DNA of 33,203 bases, taken from the NCBI GenBank assembly GCA_030640255.1, contig DAOWJS010000103.1, forward strand, positions 1 to 33,203. The letters run 5' to 3'. Every line of letters starts with the position of its first letter. Position 1 is the stretch's first letter. Positions 5,027 through 26,849 of the stretch are shown piece after piece. A program made the position numbers and the translations under genes. The notes beneath the pieces were generated by a model. That model worked only from the letters and a program-made list of their open reading frames with translations, did not search any database and had not been told where the DNA came from. This DNA comes from Dehalococcoidales bacterium (GTDB taxonomy: Bacteria; Chloroflexota; Dehalococcoidia; Dehalococcoidales; GCA-2688105).

Positions 5027-5052
5027 CCACCTAGGAACTAGAGCGGGCGTGA

Positions 5053-5370
5053 CTCGAGGTTCAGAACTCTCTATCGGATAGGAAGCTTGATATCGAAGAT
5101 ATGTCGCTTACGCAGAGCTATGTGGCTGTTCTGAAGAGCTTACTGGAATCCGCTCCAATACTCGAGCAAAAAGCATACTTGAAGTCATTTGTCAGAAGTA
5201 TTGAGGTATCCAAATCTGAGGTTACTGTAAACTACTCTCTTCCGATGCCCATATCCAATACCGGTAGGGAAAGTGTTGGAGTTCTTGCTTTTAGATTGAG
5301 TGGTAGGCCGTGCAGGTCTCGAACCTGCGACACCCTGATTAAAAGTCAGGTGCTCTGCCAACTGAGCTAA
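5053..5370 (+). pseudogene. C-terminal remnant of a large serine site-specific recombinase, running into antisense tRNA-Lys
   Basis: Open from the codon after TGA at 5050-5052: LEVQNSLSDRKLDIEDMSLTQSYVAVLKSLLESAPILEQKAYLKSFVRSIEVSKSEVTVNYSLPMP; the tail GRPCRSRTCDTLIKSQVLCQLS is antisense tRNA. No catalytic domain upstream. Confidence 0.72.
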
Positions 5371-5376
5371 CGGCCC
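5304..5376 (-). tRNA. tRNA-Lys (anticodon UUU)
   Basis: Reverse complement GGGCCGTTAGCTCAGTTGGCAGAGCACCTGACTTTTAATCAGGGTGTCGCAGGTTCGAGACCTGCACGGCCTA folds as a cloverleaf; TTT anticodon in CTGACTTTTAATCAG; GGTTCGAGACC T arm. Confidence 0.95.
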
Positions 5377-5488
5377 GTATTTAACCTTAGTGAGTTGTCA
5401 CAGCGATACTTTGTTTATACGCTCCGATTTTAGCAAAGCTGGGATACCAATGCAAATATGACACGTTAGGGCACTGATTCTTTTTAGC

Positions 5489-5713
5489 TTATTTCCTGCC
5501 CATCTTGGTCAGGAGCCAGGAGACCCATTGCTCAATTCCCTGACCAGTGACACAAGAGACTTGAAAAATCTCTACTTTCTTGTTTATCCCCTTGATTGCT
5601 TGAGAAAAAGTCTGAATATCAAACTCCAGGTATGGCAAAAGGTCAATTACTGTCTCCTCACATCCGCCACACGAAGCACACCAATAAAAAGCAAAACAAT
5701 TTCGGGTTGTAAT
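5489..5713 (-). pseudogene. In-frame chimera: [NiFe]-hydrogenase small-subunit-like N-terminus joined to HypB C-terminus
   Basis: Minus strand reads ITTRNCFAFYWCASCGGCEETVIDLLPYLEFDIQTFSQAIKGINKKVEIFQVSCVTGQGIEQWVSWLLTKMGRK*. The first part resembles hydrogenase small subunits (CxxC near N-terminus). IDLLPYLEFD...VSCVTGQGIEQWVSWL resembles the C-terminus of HypB. No ATG at the expected start. Confidence 0.6.
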
Positions 5714-5726
5714 GCGGAGGAGGGGG

Positions 5727-7460
5727 CTATCCCTTGAATCGGTTGGTAATGGGCAATCTCCTATCTCTACCGAATGCCCGGGGAGTTACCTTGACCCCTG
5801 GCGGCGCCTGGCGACGCTTATACTCGCTCGTGTCCACTAACCAGGCAGCCCGCCTGACCACCTCTTCATCAATTCCCATAGCCATAATCTGCTCTACGCT
5901 TTTGTCCTCCTCGACATAAGCGGTTAACACCGGGTCGAGCAGGTCGTAGGGAGGCAGGGTGTCAGTATCCTTTTGTTCCGGCCTTAGCTCAGCCGAGGGC
6001 ACCTTGTCTATGATGGTGGAAGGTATAAGCTCCAACCCGGCTATTGAGTTTCGGTATCTGGCGAGTTTGTAGACCATGGTCTTGTATACGTCCTTTAGCA
6101 CGGCAAAGCCACCGGCCATATCCCCAAACAACGTGGTGTAGCCGGTGGCCATTTCGCTCTTGTTGCCCGTGGTCAGAACCAGCCAGCCGAATTTGTTGGA
6201 TAACGCCATGAGGATATTGCCTCGGACACGAGCTTGAATATTTTCCTCAGTCACATTGGGCTCAGTCCCTTCAAAAGATGGAGCCAGCATCTCAAGGTAG
6301 TCTTGAAAAACCTTCTCAATAGGGATAGTTATCAGCCTGATATCCAGGTTATGAGCCAGCAACTCAGCGTCTGAAATACTGCCCGGAGAAGAGTATCTTG
6401 AGGGCATCGCTACCCCGACCACGCTTGATGGCCCCAGGGCGTCAACGGCAATAGCAGCCACTAAGCTGGAGTCAATGCCTCCAGAAAGACCAATCAGTAC
6501 CTTCTCAAAACCATTCTTGATGATGTAATCGTGCGTGCCCAACACCAGCGCATCATAGACCTCCCCGGGCAGGCCATGCACCTCAAGTTGCCTTGGCGGT
6601 AGCGGTGGTTTTGGAGCTGCCGAAGGCACTTCAGACACCACTAATTTGGTCTCACGCCACCCTTGCTCTTCCAGAAGCGGCGTCCCCTTTCTCCACCTAG
6701 GGTCGTGAAGACGCGCCCGAAAGACAGCCTCAACATCAAGGTCAGCTACTATCAGGTCTTCTTCAAACTGCTTACCCCTGGCTATCAGCCGCCCCTTCTC
6801 ATCCAGCACCAGGCTATTGCCATCAAAGACCAGCTCATCCTGCCCTCCTACCAGATTGTTGTAAGCCACGATAGCTACATTGTCCGAGGCACGGGCTCCC
6901 ATCATTCTTTCCCTGAAGTCTCCCTTGCCAAAATGATATGGCGAAGCACTTATGTTCACTATGACCTCAGCCCCGGAGTAGACTTGTACCGTAGTTGGCC
7001 CGCCCTCGTACCAGAGGTCTTCACAAATGCTGATGCCGACACCAACGCCAGCTATGATATAGACGGGATACTCCTTCCCCGCCTGAAAGTAGCGGTTCTC
7101 ATCAAAGACTCCGTAGTTGGGCAGGTATATCTTGTGATAGACACTAACCAGCTTGCCATCGTGGATGACAGCGGCAGCATTGTAGATGTCACCTTTGGCA
7201 TCAACGAAACCAACCACCAGGGTAAGCCCCGAGGAGTGTTCAACCACCTGGTCAAGAGACCTTAGATTTTCCTCGATAAACCGTGGCTTAAGCAGAAGGT
7301 CCTCCGGCGGGTAGCCGCAGATGGCAAGCTCAGGAAAGGTAAGGAGGTCAACCCCTAAAGACCTGGCTTCGGTGATGGCTTCCAGAATCTTCTGAGTGTT
7401 ACCCTGAAGGTCACCAACGGTAGTATTGATCTGAGCCATACCTATTCGTAGTCTGCGCAC
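5727..7460 (-). CDS. nadE: Glutamine-dependent NAD+ synthetase (nitrilase domain + synthetase domain)
   Basis: N-terminal CN-hydrolase (LLTFPELAICGYPPEDLL, ISICEDLWYEGG), C-terminal IGLSGGIDSSLVAAIAVDALG, LTTGNKSEMATGYTTLFGDMAGGFAVLKDVYKT. Confidence 0.96.
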   Translation of the reverse strand: MRRLRIGMAQINTTVGDLQGNTQKILEAITEARSLGVDLLTFPELAICGYPPEDLLLKPRFIEENLRSLDQVVEHSSGLTLVVGFVDAKGDIYNAAAVIHDGKLVSVYHKIYLPNYGVFDENRYFQAGKEYPVYIIAGVGVGISICEDLWYEGGPTTVQVYSGAEVIVNISASPYHFGKGDFRERMMGARASDNVAIVAYNNLVGGQDELVFDGNSLVLDEKGRLIARGKQFEEDLIVADLDVEAVFRARLHDPRWRKGTPLLEEQGWRETKLVVSEVPSAAPKPPLPPRQLEVHGLPGEVYDALVLGTHDYIIKNGFEKVLIGLSGGIDSSLVAAIAVDALGPSSVVGVAMPSRYSSPGSISDAELLAHNLDIRLITIPIEKVFQDYLEMLAPSFEGTEPNVTEENIQARVRGNILMALSNKFGWLVLTTGNKSEMATGYTTLFGDMAGGFAVLKDVYKTMVYKLARYRNSIAGLELIPSTIIDKVPSAELRPEQKDTDTLPPYDLLDPVLTAYVEEDKSVEQIMAMGIDEEVVRRAAWLVDTSEYKRRQAPPGVKVTPRAFGRDRRLPITNRFKG

Positions 7461-7637
7461 ACTAATTCCTCCACCCGTAGCGAACTACACTCGACTCACC
7501 AGCTTGGGTAAGCATCACTCTTTACTATACTCAGCTTCAAGCCGAAAAGCAATGGCTTTACTGTTAAAAACGCCCGTTATCAGCACCAGAATGTAGTCTA
7601 TTTCCAAGAATCGGTTTTTTATGATACATTTATAACA

Positions 7638-8522
7638 ATGGTTAACTGGGCACAAGTTATATTTAATTCCGGCGTCACCGGTAGCCTGTATCTTATTGGA
7701 GCTGTAGGTCTTACCTTAACCTATGGTTTGTCTAAATTCCCAAATTTTGCTCATGCTGAATTTATGACTTTGGGTGCCTATATAGGATATTTTGTGGCTG
7801 AGCAATTAGGATTAGGCTTACCGCTAGCTCTGCTTGTTGCCTTCTTGATTGCTGGGCTAGTGGGGGTTCTATGTTACCGTGGTATTTTTCAGCCCCTAGC
7901 TAAAAGGGGAGCCAGCATCATCCATCTTATGGTGGCTTCTATAGCCCTGGGCTTTATCCTCAGGCATTCCATTGGTGCTGCTTGGACTTGGAAACCCTTG
8001 TATTTTACTGCTACCTGGTCTGCCTTCGATGCAGGTCCACTGAGAATCACTGGCCTTTGGCTCTGGCTTATCTTTGCCGCTCTAGTTTTATCGCTTGCCA
8101 TGCACTTCCTCTTGATGAATACCAAGATAGGCAAAGCCATCAGGGCAAGCTCCAGTAATCCCGAGCTTGCCTTAGCCTCCGGCATCAACGTTGATCGAGT
8201 GATTTGGATAACTTGGTTTATTGGTGCTGGACTCGCTGCCGTTGCTGGCATCTTTCGCGGTGCAGATACTCAGATTTGGCCCATGACAGGCTGGGACATC
8301 ATATTACCCATCTTCGCCGTTGCCATACTTGGTGGCATCGGCAACTTCTATGGGGCAATAGCCGCCGCCTTTATCATTGGATTAGCTGAAAATATCGGGG
8401 TGGTGGGTTTGATAGCCTTGGGGCTTTCTACAACATATCGTACAGGTATAGCTTTCTTGATTCTCATAATAACCTTAATTGTAAGGCCACAGGGACTAGC
8501 TATGTTGTTTAGGAGGGCTTAA
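7638..8522 (+). CDS. Branched-chain amino acid ABC transporter permease (LivH-type)
   Basis: Hydrophobic; GLTLTYGLSKFPNFAHAEFMTLGAYIGYF and AVAILGGIGNFYGAIAAAFIIGLAENIG; first gene of a five-gene liv order. Confidence 0.9.
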   Translation: MVNWAQVIFNSGVTGSLYLIGAVGLTLTYGLSKFPNFAHAEFMTLGAYIGYFVAEQLGLGLPLALLVAFLIAGLVGVLCYRGIFQPLAKRGASIIHLMVASIALGFILRHSIGAAWTWKPLYFTATWSAFDAGPLRITGLWLWLIFAALVLSLAMHFLLMNTKIGKAIRASSSNPELALASGINVDRVIWITWFIGAGLAAVAGIFRGADTQIWPMTGWDIILPIFAVAILGGIGNFYGAIAAAFIIGLAENIGVVGLIALGLSTTYRTGIAFLILIITLIVRPQGLAMLFRRA

Positions 8523-8523
8523 T

Positions 8524-9468
8524 TTGGATCCCTTACTTTATGTCTTTGACCTCATCGTCTTTATTGGCATCTTTGGCATTGTCTCTCTAAGCCTTAACTT
8601 GGAGTTTGGCTTCGCCGGACTTGCCAATTTTGGCAAGGTAGCTTTCTTCCTCATCGGTGCTTATACCTATGCCCTTCTCTCTCAAATTGGCCTTCCCTTT
8701 TACCTTTGCCTTATCGCTGGTGGCTTAATCTCAGCTATTTTTGGTTTGCTTGTTTCTTTGCCTGCTCTGAGGCTAAGGGCTGATTACTTGGCCATAGCCG
8801 TCTTGGCCTTTGGAGAAATCTTGAGGTTGATTGTTAAATCTGAGGACTGGCTTGCCGGCGGCGATTGGGGAATAACGGTTTCTTCAGCTATTTCCTTGGC
8901 GGGTGCTTCTCACCGCGTTGATGCTTTGGTAAATATTGCTCTAGTCTATTTCTGTTTGTTTATCTGTTTCACTGTGGCTCAGCTATTGGCCAACTCTCCC
9001 TACGGCAGGGCAATGCGAGCCATAAGAGAAGACGAAATAGCCGCTGAGACACTAGGTAAGAGCAGGGCTAAATTTAAGGCTCAAGCATTAATGTTGGGTT
9101 CGGCTATGGCTGGAGTAGCTGGGGGGCTTTACGCTCAGTATCTCCACTGCGTCCTCCCCGGTATGTTTATGCCTATGATTACCTTTACCGTGTGGATAAT
9201 GGTTCTCTTGGGAGGACCAGCTAATAACTGGGGTGCATTATTGGGTGCTGCTCTGGTAGAGATTTTCGATAGGGGTACAAATATAGTCAAGGACTATTTC
9301 GTTTTGCCTATTGACCCCAGCAACTTGCAGTATATTCTATTTGGCGCTTTGATCATATTTGTGCTACTATATAGACCGCATGGTCTGCTAAAGGAAAGCT
9401 CTATCAAGACAAAGGCACTGAGGTTAGCCTACAATGGAAGACGCTCTATTAAGAATAAGAGAAGTTAG
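8524..9468 (+). CDS. Branched-chain amino acid ABC transporter permease (LivM-type)
   Basis: SLNLEFGFAGLANFGKVAFFLIGAYTYALL; MRAIREDEIAAETLGKSRAKFKAQALMLGSAMAGVAGGLYA; TTG start. Confidence 0.9.
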   Translation: MDPLLYVFDLIVFIGIFGIVSLSLNLEFGFAGLANFGKVAFFLIGAYTYALLSQIGLPFYLCLIAGGLISAIFGLLVSLPALRLRADYLAIAVLAFGEILRLIVKSEDWLAGGDWGITVSSAISLAGASHRVDALVNIALVYFCLFICFTVAQLLANSPYGRAMRAIREDEIAAETLGKSRAKFKAQALMLGSAMAGVAGGLYAQYLHCVLPGMFMPMITFTVWIMVLLGGPANNWGALLGAALVEIFDRGTNIVKDYFVLPIDPSNLQYILFGALIIFVLLYRPHGLLKESSIKTKALRLAYNGRRSIKNKRS

Positions 9469-10198
9469 CAAGCACTTTGGCGGTGTTTACGCCGTCAACG
9501 GGGTAAGCCTGGACATCACTCATGGTGGGGTTTGTGGATTGGTGGGGCCTAATGGCAGTGGCAAGACGACCTTGTTTAATACCATCCTTGGCCTTCATAG
9601 ACCTGACCAGGGAGAAATCTACTTCCACGGCGAGTGTATCAATAACCTGGCTCCTCACCAGATTTATGAGTTAGGCTTGGTAAATGCCTTTCAATTACCT
9701 CGACTCTTTTATGACCTCAGCGTACTGGATAATATGCTGGTGGCGGCACGGGGTCACCAGGGCGATAGGCTGTTTAATAGCCTTTTCCTGAGACGGAGAT
9801 GGCAGGAGCAGGAAAAAGGCTTGATTGAGGAGGCTCTGGATATCCTGGAACTTGTGGAGCTGGATAAATGGGTTTCTTCTCCCGCTGGTGAGCTTTCTGG
9901 TGGACAGAGAAAACTTCTTGAAGTTGCCCGGGGGCTTATGGCCAAGCCGACACTTTTGCTCCTAGACGAACCAGCAGCAGGCATAAATCCCGTACTGGGC
10001 AAGAAAATATTTCAGAAATTGGCAGATTTCTCCCATAACGGCATAACCTTTTTCGTTGTGGAGCACCGGTTAGAGATACTGTTCGAGTTTGCCTCCTGGG
10101 TCTATGTTATGGATAAAGGCAGGATAGCAATTGCCGGACAGCCGCAAAACATAATCGGCGACCCCACTTTCTACACAATATATTTAGGGGAAGAATAA
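9434..10198 (+). CDS. Branched-chain amino acid ABC transporter ATP-binding protein (LivG-type)
   Basis: Walker A GPNGSGKTT, LSGGQRKLLEVARGLM signature, LLLLDEPAAGINP. Confidence 0.93.
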   Translation: MEDALLRIREVSKHFGGVYAVNGVSLDITHGGVCGLVGPNGSGKTTLFNTILGLHRPDQGEIYFHGECINNLAPHQIYELGLVNAFQLPRLFYDLSVLDNMLVAARGHQGDRLFNSLFLRRRWQEQEKGLIEEALDILELVELDKWVSSPAGELSGGQRKLLEVARGLMAKPTLLLLDEPAAGINPVLGKKIFQKLADFSHNGITFFVVEHRLEILFEFASWVYVMDKGRIAIAGQPQNIIGDPTFYTIYLGEE

Positions 10199-18382: not shown

Positions 18383-19363
18383 ATGACTGAGACAATTTTA
18401 AGAATTAGAAATCTGAGGACATATTTTTTCACCCGGCGGGGTACGGTTAAGGCAGTAGACGGCATCGATTTTGACCTTCTGAAGAGCAAATGCCTGTGTC
18501 TGGTGGGCGAATCCGGCTGCGGGAAAACAGTGACCGCGCTGTCTATTTTAGGTTTAATTGATAGTCCACCGGGCAGGATAGTCGGCGGCGAAATATACTA
18601 CAACAATCTAAATCTACTGGAATGTCCCCCTGACCAGCTCAGGCGTATCAGAGGCAAAGAAATTGCCATGGTCTTTCAGGATGCGCAATCAGCCCTCAAT
18701 CCAGTATTCACCATAGGTAACCAGATAGTGGAGCAGGTAAAGCTCCACCTCGGGGCGACCACGCGGGAGGCAAAGGAAAAGGCGCTAAGCCTGCTGGAAG
18801 AGGTGGGCATACCAACACCGGAAAAAGTGGCTAACTATTATCCTCACCAGTTATCCGGTGGGATGAGACAGAGAGCCATGATAGCCATGAGCTTGTCCTG
18901 TGACCCGCAAATCCTTATTGCTGATGAGCCAACCACGGCGGTTGATGTAACGGTAAAAGCCCAGATTCTGGACATTTTTAACCAGCTCAAAAATACCCGG
19001 CAGATGTCCCTCCTCTTCATAACTCACGACCTGGGTATAGTTTCCGAAATTGGGGATAGGATTCTGGTCATGTACGGCGGCAGGGTCGCTGAAGCCGCTA
19101 CCGTTTCAGGATTACTCAACAATCCCAAACACCCGTACACCGCTAGCTTGATTAGGTGTTTGCCCGATATAACCCAAGTAAAAGATAGACTTGAGACCAT
19201 ACCCGGAACTGTGCCCAGCCTTATTGACCCCCCTGGTGGCTGTCTTTTCCACCCCCGATGCGATAAAGCTCTGGCTATTTGCCGGGAGGAGACGCCGCCA
19301 CCGTTTATTGTTGCCGAGGGGCATACTGTCTTCTGCCATCTATATTCTCACCTTGAAAGGTAA
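18383..19363 (+). CDS. Peptide ABC transporter ATP-binding protein (DppD/OppD-type)
   Basis: Walker A GESGCGKTV, LSGGMRQRAMIAMSLSCDPQILIADEPTTAVDVTV, C-terminal oligopeptide-transporter Cys motif GCLFHPRCDKALAICREETP. Start placed at the internal ATG (MTETILRI) just after the permease stop. Confidence 0.92.
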   Translation: MTETILRIRNLRTYFFTRRGTVKAVDGIDFDLLKSKCLCLVGESGCGKTVTALSILGLIDSPPGRIVGGEIYYNNLNLLECPPDQLRRIRGKEIAMVFQDAQSALNPVFTIGNQIVEQVKLHLGATTREAKEKALSLLEEVGIPTPEKVANYYPHQLSGGMRQRAMIAMSLSCDPQILIADEPTTAVDVTVKAQILDIFNQLKNTRQMSLLFITHDLGIVSEIGDRILVMYGGRVAEAATVSGLLNNPKHPYTASLIRCLPDITQVKDRLETIPGTVPSLIDPPGGCLFHPRCDKALAICREETPPPFIVAEGHTVFCHLYSHLER

Positions 19364-24888: not shown

Positions 24889-25710
24889 ATGCTTAAGAAA
24901 AGGGCCATAACTGCACTATGGGTTATTCCTCTCCTCGTCGCGGCTATTTGGTTTGACCAACCATTGCCCTGGTTCACCATAGTAGTGGCTATCTGGGGAC
25001 TGCTGGCTGCCTTTGAATTCTATAAAATGGTGGCGGTAGCCAAGGTGCCGCCCCTTACCTGCTTCGGGCTAATCTGGACATTGCTATTTATCTTGAGTCC
25101 CCATTTTGATTATGCCACTCTTATACCACTGCTATTAACCTCGGCAGTGATACTACCCCTAATCTACCTTGTAGGACGCCAGCAGAAGGAGGCTTTCACT
25201 AGCTGGGTATGGACAATAGCCGGAATTCTCTACCTAGGGTGGATGCTAAGTCATTTTGTCGCTCTGAGGGGTCTAGATACAGGCAGAAATTGGGTATTTT
25301 TTGCCCTGTTTACCACCTTTGCTTCTGATACCGCTGCCTTCTTCATCGGCAGAGTCCTGGGCAGACACCGCCTTGCCCCGCATATTAGCCCCGGCAAAAC
25401 CTGGGAAGGCGCCATAGCTGGCGTCTTTGGTGCCATCATAATTAGCTTGCTTTTTATCACACCCAATCTCTTTACTGTACCCAATCCCCTCTATCTTCAG
25501 GATTTTAGCTACTGGCAGGCAATACTTTTAGGCTTACTGGTCAGTGTCTTTGGGCAACTTGGCGACCTGATAGAGTCCCTGCTCAAACGCAACATGGGAG
25601 TAAAGGACTCAAGCCAGCTAATACCTGGACATGGTGGCTTCCTTGACCGTATAGACAGCATTGTCTTTGCTGGCGTAGTGGTATATTATTATGTAATATG
25701 GGTGGTATAG
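24889..25710 (+). CDS. cdsA: Phosphatidate cytidylyltransferase
   Basis: C-terminal signature SVFGQLGDLIESLLKRNMGVKDSSQLIPGHGGFLDRIDSI; start placed at MLKKRAIT because the ORF extension to 24805 translates repeat B. Confidence 0.93.
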   Translation: MLKKRAITALWVIPLLVAAIWFDQPLPWFTIVVAIWGLLAAFEFYKMVAVAKVPPLTCFGLIWTLLFILSPHFDYATLIPLLLTSAVILPLIYLVGRQQKEAFTSWVWTIAGILYLGWMLSHFVALRGLDTGRNWVFFALFTTFASDTAAFFIGRVLGRHRLAPHISPGKTWEGAIAGVFGAIIISLLFITPNLFTVPNPLYLQDFSYWQAILLGLLVSVFGQLGDLIESLLKRNMGVKDSSQLIPGHGGFLDRIDSIVFAGVVVYYYVIWVV

Positions 25711-26849
25711 TAAAGCAACTAGCTGTTCTGGGCTCAACCGGCTCCATAGGTCAGCAAACGCTTCAAGTAGTCCGTGCCTTACCTGACCGGTTTCATATAG
25801 TTGGGCTGGCGGCGGGGAAGAACCTTGAGCTACTGACCAAGCAAGTCAATGAGTTCAGACCCAGATTTATCTACTACCAGGATAGAGAGACACGGGTTCG
25901 CCTGACTAACGGGGAATATGAATTCCTATCACCGGAAGACATCGCCCGTCACCCTCAAGTGGACACCGTGGTCATCGCTACCCCCGGGAAGTCAGGGCTG
26001 AGCCCGACACTGGCGGCAGTGAAAGCCGGCAAAAGGGTCGCCCTGGCCAACAAGGAATCGTTAGTCATGGCCGGCGAGATTATCACCGATGAGGCAAACC
26101 TAAATGGAGCCCAGATTCTGCCTATTGATAGTGAACACAGCGCTATATGGCAATGCCTCAGAGGCGAAATGCAACCACCGGTCCAGATTATGCTGACGGC
26201 ATCAGGGGGGCCTTTCCTTCACTATTCACCAGCGCAGCTAAATAAAGTTACCATTGACCAAGCACTAAAGCACCCCTCGTGGCAGATGGGAAGGAAGGTT
26301 ACCATTGACTCGGCTACCCTGATGAACAAGGGGTTGGAGGTAATTGAAGCCCACTGGCTATTTAACCTGCCTTTTGAGGATATCAAGGTTTTAATTCACC
26401 CCCAGAGCATTATACACTCTATGGTAGAATTCGCCGACGGCTCAACTAAAGCCCAGTTAGGTTACCCTGATATGCGCCTACCCATTCAATATGCCCTGTC
26501 CTACCCGGAACGGCTAGCCAACCCCCAGCTCCCCCGGCTTGACTGGAGTCGGATTAATAGCCTCACCTTTGAGTCACCTGACCTGGATACCTTCCCTTGT
26601 CTCAGGTTAGCCATTGAGGCGGGGAGGAAGGGGGAGACTTACCCGGCGGTGCTTGGCGGCGCCGATGAGGTAGCTGTGGAACTCTTCCTATCACAACGCA
26701 TTAAATTTACCGATATTGCCCACCTTGTAGAGCAAGCGCTGGAACAGCATCAAGTTATAGCTTACCCCAATCTGGAGGGAATACTAGCCGCTGATGCCTG
26801 GGCGAGGCGAAAAGTCACGGAACTGGCCACCGGAGATAACCCATGGTAA
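25698..26849 (+). CDS. dxr: 1-deoxy-D-xylulose 5-phosphate reductoisomerase
   Basis: VLGSTGSIGQQTLQVV; ALANKESLVMAGEII; LPIDSEHSAIWQCL; LTASGGPF; HPSWQMGRKVTIDSATLMNKGLEVIEAHWLF. Confidence 0.97.
   Translation: MGGIVKQLAVLGSTGSIGQQTLQVVRALPDRFHIVGLAAGKNLELLTKQVNEFRPRFIYYQDRETRVRLTNGEYEFLSPEDIARHPQVDTVVIATPGKSGLSPTLAAVKAGKRVALANKESLVMAGEIITDEANLNGAQILPIDSEHSAIWQCLRGEMQPPVQIMLTASGGPFLHYSPAQLNKVTIDQALKHPSWQMGRKVTIDSATLMNKGLEVIEAHWLFNLPFEDIKVLIHPQSIIHSMVEFADGSTKAQLGYPDMRLPIQYALSYPERLANPQLPRLDWSRINSLTFESPDLDTFPCLRLAIEAGRKGETYPAVLGGADEVAVELFLSQRIKFTDIAHLVEQALEQHQVIAYPNLEGILAADAWARRKVTELATGDNPW

Follow-up and report, generated by a model that had tools for sequence, protein, structure and literature searches.

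A hydrogenase-hypB fusion remnant beside nadE as a probable deletion scar of a lost [NiFe]-hydrogenase cluster in a Dehalococcoidales genome

RESULTS

A fusion remnant between nadE and tRNA-Lys

We found that positions 5489 to 5713 of the window (the whole 33,203-nt stretch of Dehalococcoidales DNA analyzed here) are best explained, with a probability of roughly 93%, as a deletion-scar pseudogene of a lost hydrogenase cluster rather than as a gene. Specifically, the two parental genes are separate, ordered, and co-oriented in related genomes, the genes that lie between them there are absent here, the translation signals have been lost, and the parents share a short identity at the join. The source genome (G000) is a 965-kb, 93%-complete draft in 103 contigs, and the features of the locus, in order along the minus strand, are as follows.

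5727–7460, minus: nadE, the upstream neighbor of the fusion and likewise the neighbor in the sister species G001 (contig C13)
5489–5713, minus: fusion remnant, in which the 5′ stump of the small-subunit gene runs in frame into a hypB 3′ stump (74 codons plus stop, without a start codon)
5696–5713, minus: degraded small-subunit start region, with ATT where relatives have ATG (5′ ends compared)
5639–5695, minus: hydrogenase small-subunit stump (FAFYWCASCGGCEETVIDL), with the first cysteines of the proximal [4Fe-4S] motif retained
5639–5647, minus: join ATTGACCTT, common to the likely parents (small subunit ...GTNATTGACCTTAA; hypB AATAAGATTGACCTTCTG)
5489–5647, minus: hypB stump, the last 52 codons plus stop, lacking the G1 P-loop and the bulk of the GTPase domain
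5377–5460, minus: tRNA-Lys leader, conserved in G001 and marking the far border of the ancestral cluster site
5301–5376, minus: tRNA-Lys (ttt), on the 3′ side of the fusion frame

The original prediction of a 74-codon frame that lacks an ATG and lies 13 bp past nadE was accurate: 13 bp separate the end of the nadE stop codon (5727) from position 5713, and the translation matches letter for letter. A codon scan revealed that the frame opens inside nadE, after a TAA at 5788–5786.

The two halves have different parents

Comparison with 60 related genomes, which include Dehalococcoidales and Dehalococcoidia metagenome assemblies, identified both parents, and the matches of both halves far exceed chance. 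Over 20 residues, residues 7–26 of the fusion are 80–90% identical across relatives, and 80–85% in these 60 genomes, to the N terminus of ~330-aa hydrogenase small subunits (~1e-8), and residues 8–25 are 94% identical to the small subunit at one relative's locus (L032); this parent belongs to a Vhu/Mvh-type [NiFe]-hydrogenase. Residues 22–74 are up to 77% identical to the C terminus of intact HypB proteins of 216–218 aa (1.2e-24 across the 60 related genomes), and HypB was the best family for residues 23–69 (2.3e-12, NCBIfam). The claim that the first part is a small-subunit N terminus was therefore borne out for residues 7–26 and not for residues 1–6, which have no clear counterpart in relatives because the start region is degraded. 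The claim that the second part is the end of HypB holds for residues 22–74, and the halves match two different parent families rather than one family end to end.

Neither parent is represented in full. Only 52 of the ~216 HypB residues remain, all of them C-terminal and without the P-loop and full GTPase domain, and the fusion scores below the curated HypB whole-protein cut-offs (46.9 bits versus 385, and 34.6 versus 121.2). In the small-subunit stump, the proximal-cluster ligands are incomplete, with the first CxxCGGC motif alone present, and Pfam PF01058 (Oxidored_q6) matched neither the 28-residue stump nor the whole frame, compared with 3.8e-23 for an intact relative. Pfam was uninformative for both halves because they are too short, and it was NCBIfam and the genome searches that resolved their identity. 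A search of solved structures with the fusion returned mostly chance antibody matches and one weak HypB match and was set aside.

Relatives carry the intact cluster, and the rest of it is absent here

In Dehalococcoidales relatives, the parents are separate same-strand genes at opposite ends of one cluster, which contains small-subunit, large-subunit, protease, VhuD-like, HdrA-like, MetV-like, and hypFCDEAB genes. Both parents occupy one contig and one strand in many relatives (among them G019:C17, G023:C26, G033:C14, G043:C76, G050:C10, and G058:C2), and the distance between their join positions is 10.8–14.5 kb in eight intact relatives. A check of related genomes for an intact hypB...hydrogenase cluster thus found it present, with both the order and the strand of the parents as in the fusion. 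The arrangement at L032 (G019:C17), where the whole cluster lies on one strand, is given below.

6919–7911: small subunit
7913–9376: large subunit, followed by a NifU-like gene
9646–10095: maturation protease, followed in order by VhuD-like, HdrA-like, MetV-like, HypF, HypC-like, HypD, HypE, and HypA genes
18438–19088: HypB

Here, the HdrA-like protein is a 728-aa flavoprotein with a FlpD domain, and the NifU-like, HypC-like, and HypA genes were named by sequence and position, without a family search. The cluster resembles that of the Vhu/Mvh-type F420-non-reducing [NiFe]-hydrogenase in matching VhuG, VhuA, VhuD, the maturation protease, HypF, HypD, HypE, and HypB. Among named proteins, the small and large subunits are closest to VhuG and VhuA, with scores below the curated Vhu cut-offs, so that the enzyme counts as a relative; the cluster further differs from Vhu in its additional HdrA-like and MetV-like genes, whereas the window keeps two stumps only. 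None of the intact relatives examined has nadE adjoining its hydrogenase, so the location of the cluster next to nadE appears to be a trait of this genus.

Searches of G000 with the cluster proteins revealed no large subunit, HypD, HypE, or HypA, no HypB or small subunit other than the window stumps, and only weak matches to HypF, one of them to an acylphosphatase domain. Within its 93% completeness, this genome therefore lacks the hydrogenase core and the hyp genes, in agreement with the original prediction that most of a hydrogenase and maturation cluster had been lost. HdrA-like and MetV-like matches on another contig (G000:C61) were rejected as the missing cluster; their low identity (36–45%) and their counterpart at G001:C5 mark them as a separate intact gene set. 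No second copy of the fusion was found among 156 genomes of the order. Short small-subunit or HypB frames in G030, G048, G066, G099, G102, G121, and G123 were dropped as further fossils, lying as they do at or near contig ends.

Recombinase-like sequences were also noted near both loci. In the window, a plus-strand fragment at 5027–5300 that abuts the 3′ end of tRNA-Lys and ends in ...SGRPCRSRTCDTLIKSQ resembles a site-specific recombinase C terminus (no match in Pfam), and ~6 kb upstream of the intact cluster, L032:247–657 (G019:C17) encodes a tyrosine-integrase-like C terminus with the tail SRPYRSRTCDTLIKSQ. The window fragment may be what is left of an element that had inserted at tRNA-Lys. 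The two tails are similar, and a link between tRNA-Lys elements and mobility of the hydrogenase cluster is conceivable.

A short identity at the join

The join, originally placed at about 5636–5650 in a shared VIDL/IDLL segment, was found at 5639–5647, in I-D-L codons common to both genes. The likely parental sequences are GTNATTGACCTTAAT for the small subunit and AATAAGATTGACCTTCTG for hypB, with the 9 bases of ATTGACCTT in common. At this register, identity ranges from 3 to 9 bp across intact relatives, because the ancestral letters differ, and reaches 9 bp in the likely parents, from which we infer a 9-bp identity at the window join, the exact parental sequences of the lineage being lost. 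By comparison, identities of at least 8 bp at random registers between the two genes arose in 0.02% of 200,000 trials. Since I-D-L is encoded in one phase by both copies of this sequence, the reading frame continues across the join.

The sister species bears different scars of the same cluster

Besides G000, the genus has one representative among the compared genomes, G001. Its nadE is 82% identical to that of the window, and the ~84 bp before its tRNA-Lys align with the window, which establishes the interval as the same locus. HypB and a full hydrogenase are absent in G001, and two further scars were found.

L031:9935–10300 (minus) and G061:C90: second scar, small-subunit N terminus joined in frame to large-subunit C terminus, an open 121-aa frame
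L076 / L201 (G001:C13:1–584): third scar, HdrA-like tail joined to MetV-like C terminus between nadE and tRNA-Lys, out of frame and with stop codons

In the second scar (G001 contig C4), the first 94 small-subunit residues meet the large-subunit C terminus at TGCCTGTGCT, and the first cluster cysteine has become arginine. The sequence upstream is kept and resembles that of family f33 relatives (TTTGTAATATCTGCCATATCTAGCTATAAT), and the ribosome site is lost. A further assembly, G061, which has 8% contamination and is possibly the same species as G001, carries this scar too, with 99.8% identity across 3,793 bp. Beside this scar (G001:C4 near 25497–25908) lie an intact 72-aa NifU-like gene and a maturation protease cut after ~58 residues. 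The third scar comprises a 56-residue HdrA-like tail piece and 88 residues of the MetV-like C terminus. Because the HdrA and MetV pieces are joined out of frame, we rejected the idea that in-frame joins had been selected for. For the closest available parents of the three scars, the join identities are 9, 10, and 8 bp.

G000 retains the hypB end without the HdrA/MetV piece, and G001 shows the opposite. These complementary remnants imply that the common ancestor carried both and that the visible deletions postdate the split. At the G001 nadE locus, the whole cluster would once have been contiguous, the small-subunit stump now sitting elsewhere. The two congeners thus eroded one ancestral cluster via different deletions, each at 8–10 bp of likely parental identity.

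Timing of the loss and authenticity of the junction

Compared with its nearest relatives, the HypB stump shows mostly synonymous differences, with dN of ~0.11–0.15 and dS near saturation, values to which the short length lends little power. Bases unique to the stump number one over 46 codons, with no excess of nonsynonymous change, again with little power at such a length. This lack of accelerated decay reflects either recent loss or constraint, and the cluster may have been lost recently.

A variant of the deletion-scar reading, not exclusive of it, is that the cluster was inactivated once before the species split and that the differing deletions are later trimming. Neither congener has a working hydrogenase, as this variant would have it, and a shared earlier inactivating point mutation remains compatible with the data; however, the complementary remnants show that the ancestor carried all of these parts, and the G000 stump is little decayed. 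We regard the variant as plausible in outline, though unlikely.

It is very unlikely that the junction is an assembly artefact in which distant parts of an intact cluster were misjoined. The genome is a 103-contig draft, and the window junction is known from one assembly, as assembled sequence only. Yet no other hydrogenase-core or hyp part occurs in the 965-kb, 93%-complete genome, and the nadE/tRNA-Lys interval of the sister independently carries remnants of the same cluster. Moreover, usual assembly word sizes far exceed the ~9 bp shared at the join.

Translation signals

The codon scan detected no in-frame ATG, GTG, or TTG upstream of residue 26, the first common in-frame start being a TTG at 5638, and upstream of the frame there is no counterpart of the purine-rich ribosome site that relatives have (5′ end comparison and codon scan). 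With the start codon and ribosome site gone, the fusion is most likely untranslated and probably not expressed. The alternative raised in the original prediction, a fusion that is still made and useful (e.g., as a small iron-sulphur protein or one that interferes with HypB), is thus unsupported and very unlikely, for although 74 codons are open, the HypB stump lacks excess nonsynonymous change, and the CASCGGC motif is intact, the start signals are missing, only one side of the small-subunit cluster ligands is left, the P-loop is gone, and no conserved copy exists in the 156 genomes.

DISCUSSION

Under the deletion-scar reading, one or more deletions would have removed ~12 kb encoding a Vhu/Mvh-type [NiFe]-hydrogenase along with electron-carrier and Hyp-maturation genes. 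Repeats of ~9 bp (ATTGACCTT), one near small-subunit codons 20–25 and one in the hypB codons for NKIDLLPY, would have been joined by illegitimate (RecA-independent) recombination, for example, replication slippage or end joining, with loss of the intervening DNA. A single 12-kb event would account for the scar, and several nested deletions fit equally; the recombination mechanism itself is presumed from the repeats. The sister species lost the same cluster via other deletions, so that loss was completed separately in each lineage. It is a more doubtful proposition that the three scars sample a general process of joining at 8–10 bp identities that is the main driver of long deletions in this lineage. 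If true, short-identity joining would underlie genome shrinkage in free-living Dehalococcoidia, repeatedly eroding one cluster in sister species.

The remnant resembles the deletion-scar pseudogenes of reductive evolution, as studied in Rickettsia and Mycobacterium leprae (PMC2374718), in being a truncated ancestral remnant that stays in place and is informative on lost function. In contrast to those pseudogenes, it joins both ends of a ~12-kb metabolic cluster in a small uncultivated genome, and a sister species bears different scars of the same cluster. A study of single-cell genomes of marine Dehalococcoidia reported hypABCDEF in some but not in others, along with HdrABC-MvhD-MetVF gene sets; the authors were unable to separate true absence from missing sequence (PMC5736913). 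Compared with those genomes, the scar offers positive evidence of loss. We found no earlier description of the present scar in a limited search of the literature.

The process is already known, and the finding is of value because two congeners eroded the cluster differently and because the scar is positive evidence of loss. Missing hydrogenase genes are normally ambiguous in incomplete genomes of uncultured organisms, whereas an end-to-end scar shows their former presence and removal. The turn of this lineage from hydrogen metabolism can therefore be assigned a position on the tree, and, with a different scar in each congener, parallel loss and the manner in which the ends were joined become directly testable.
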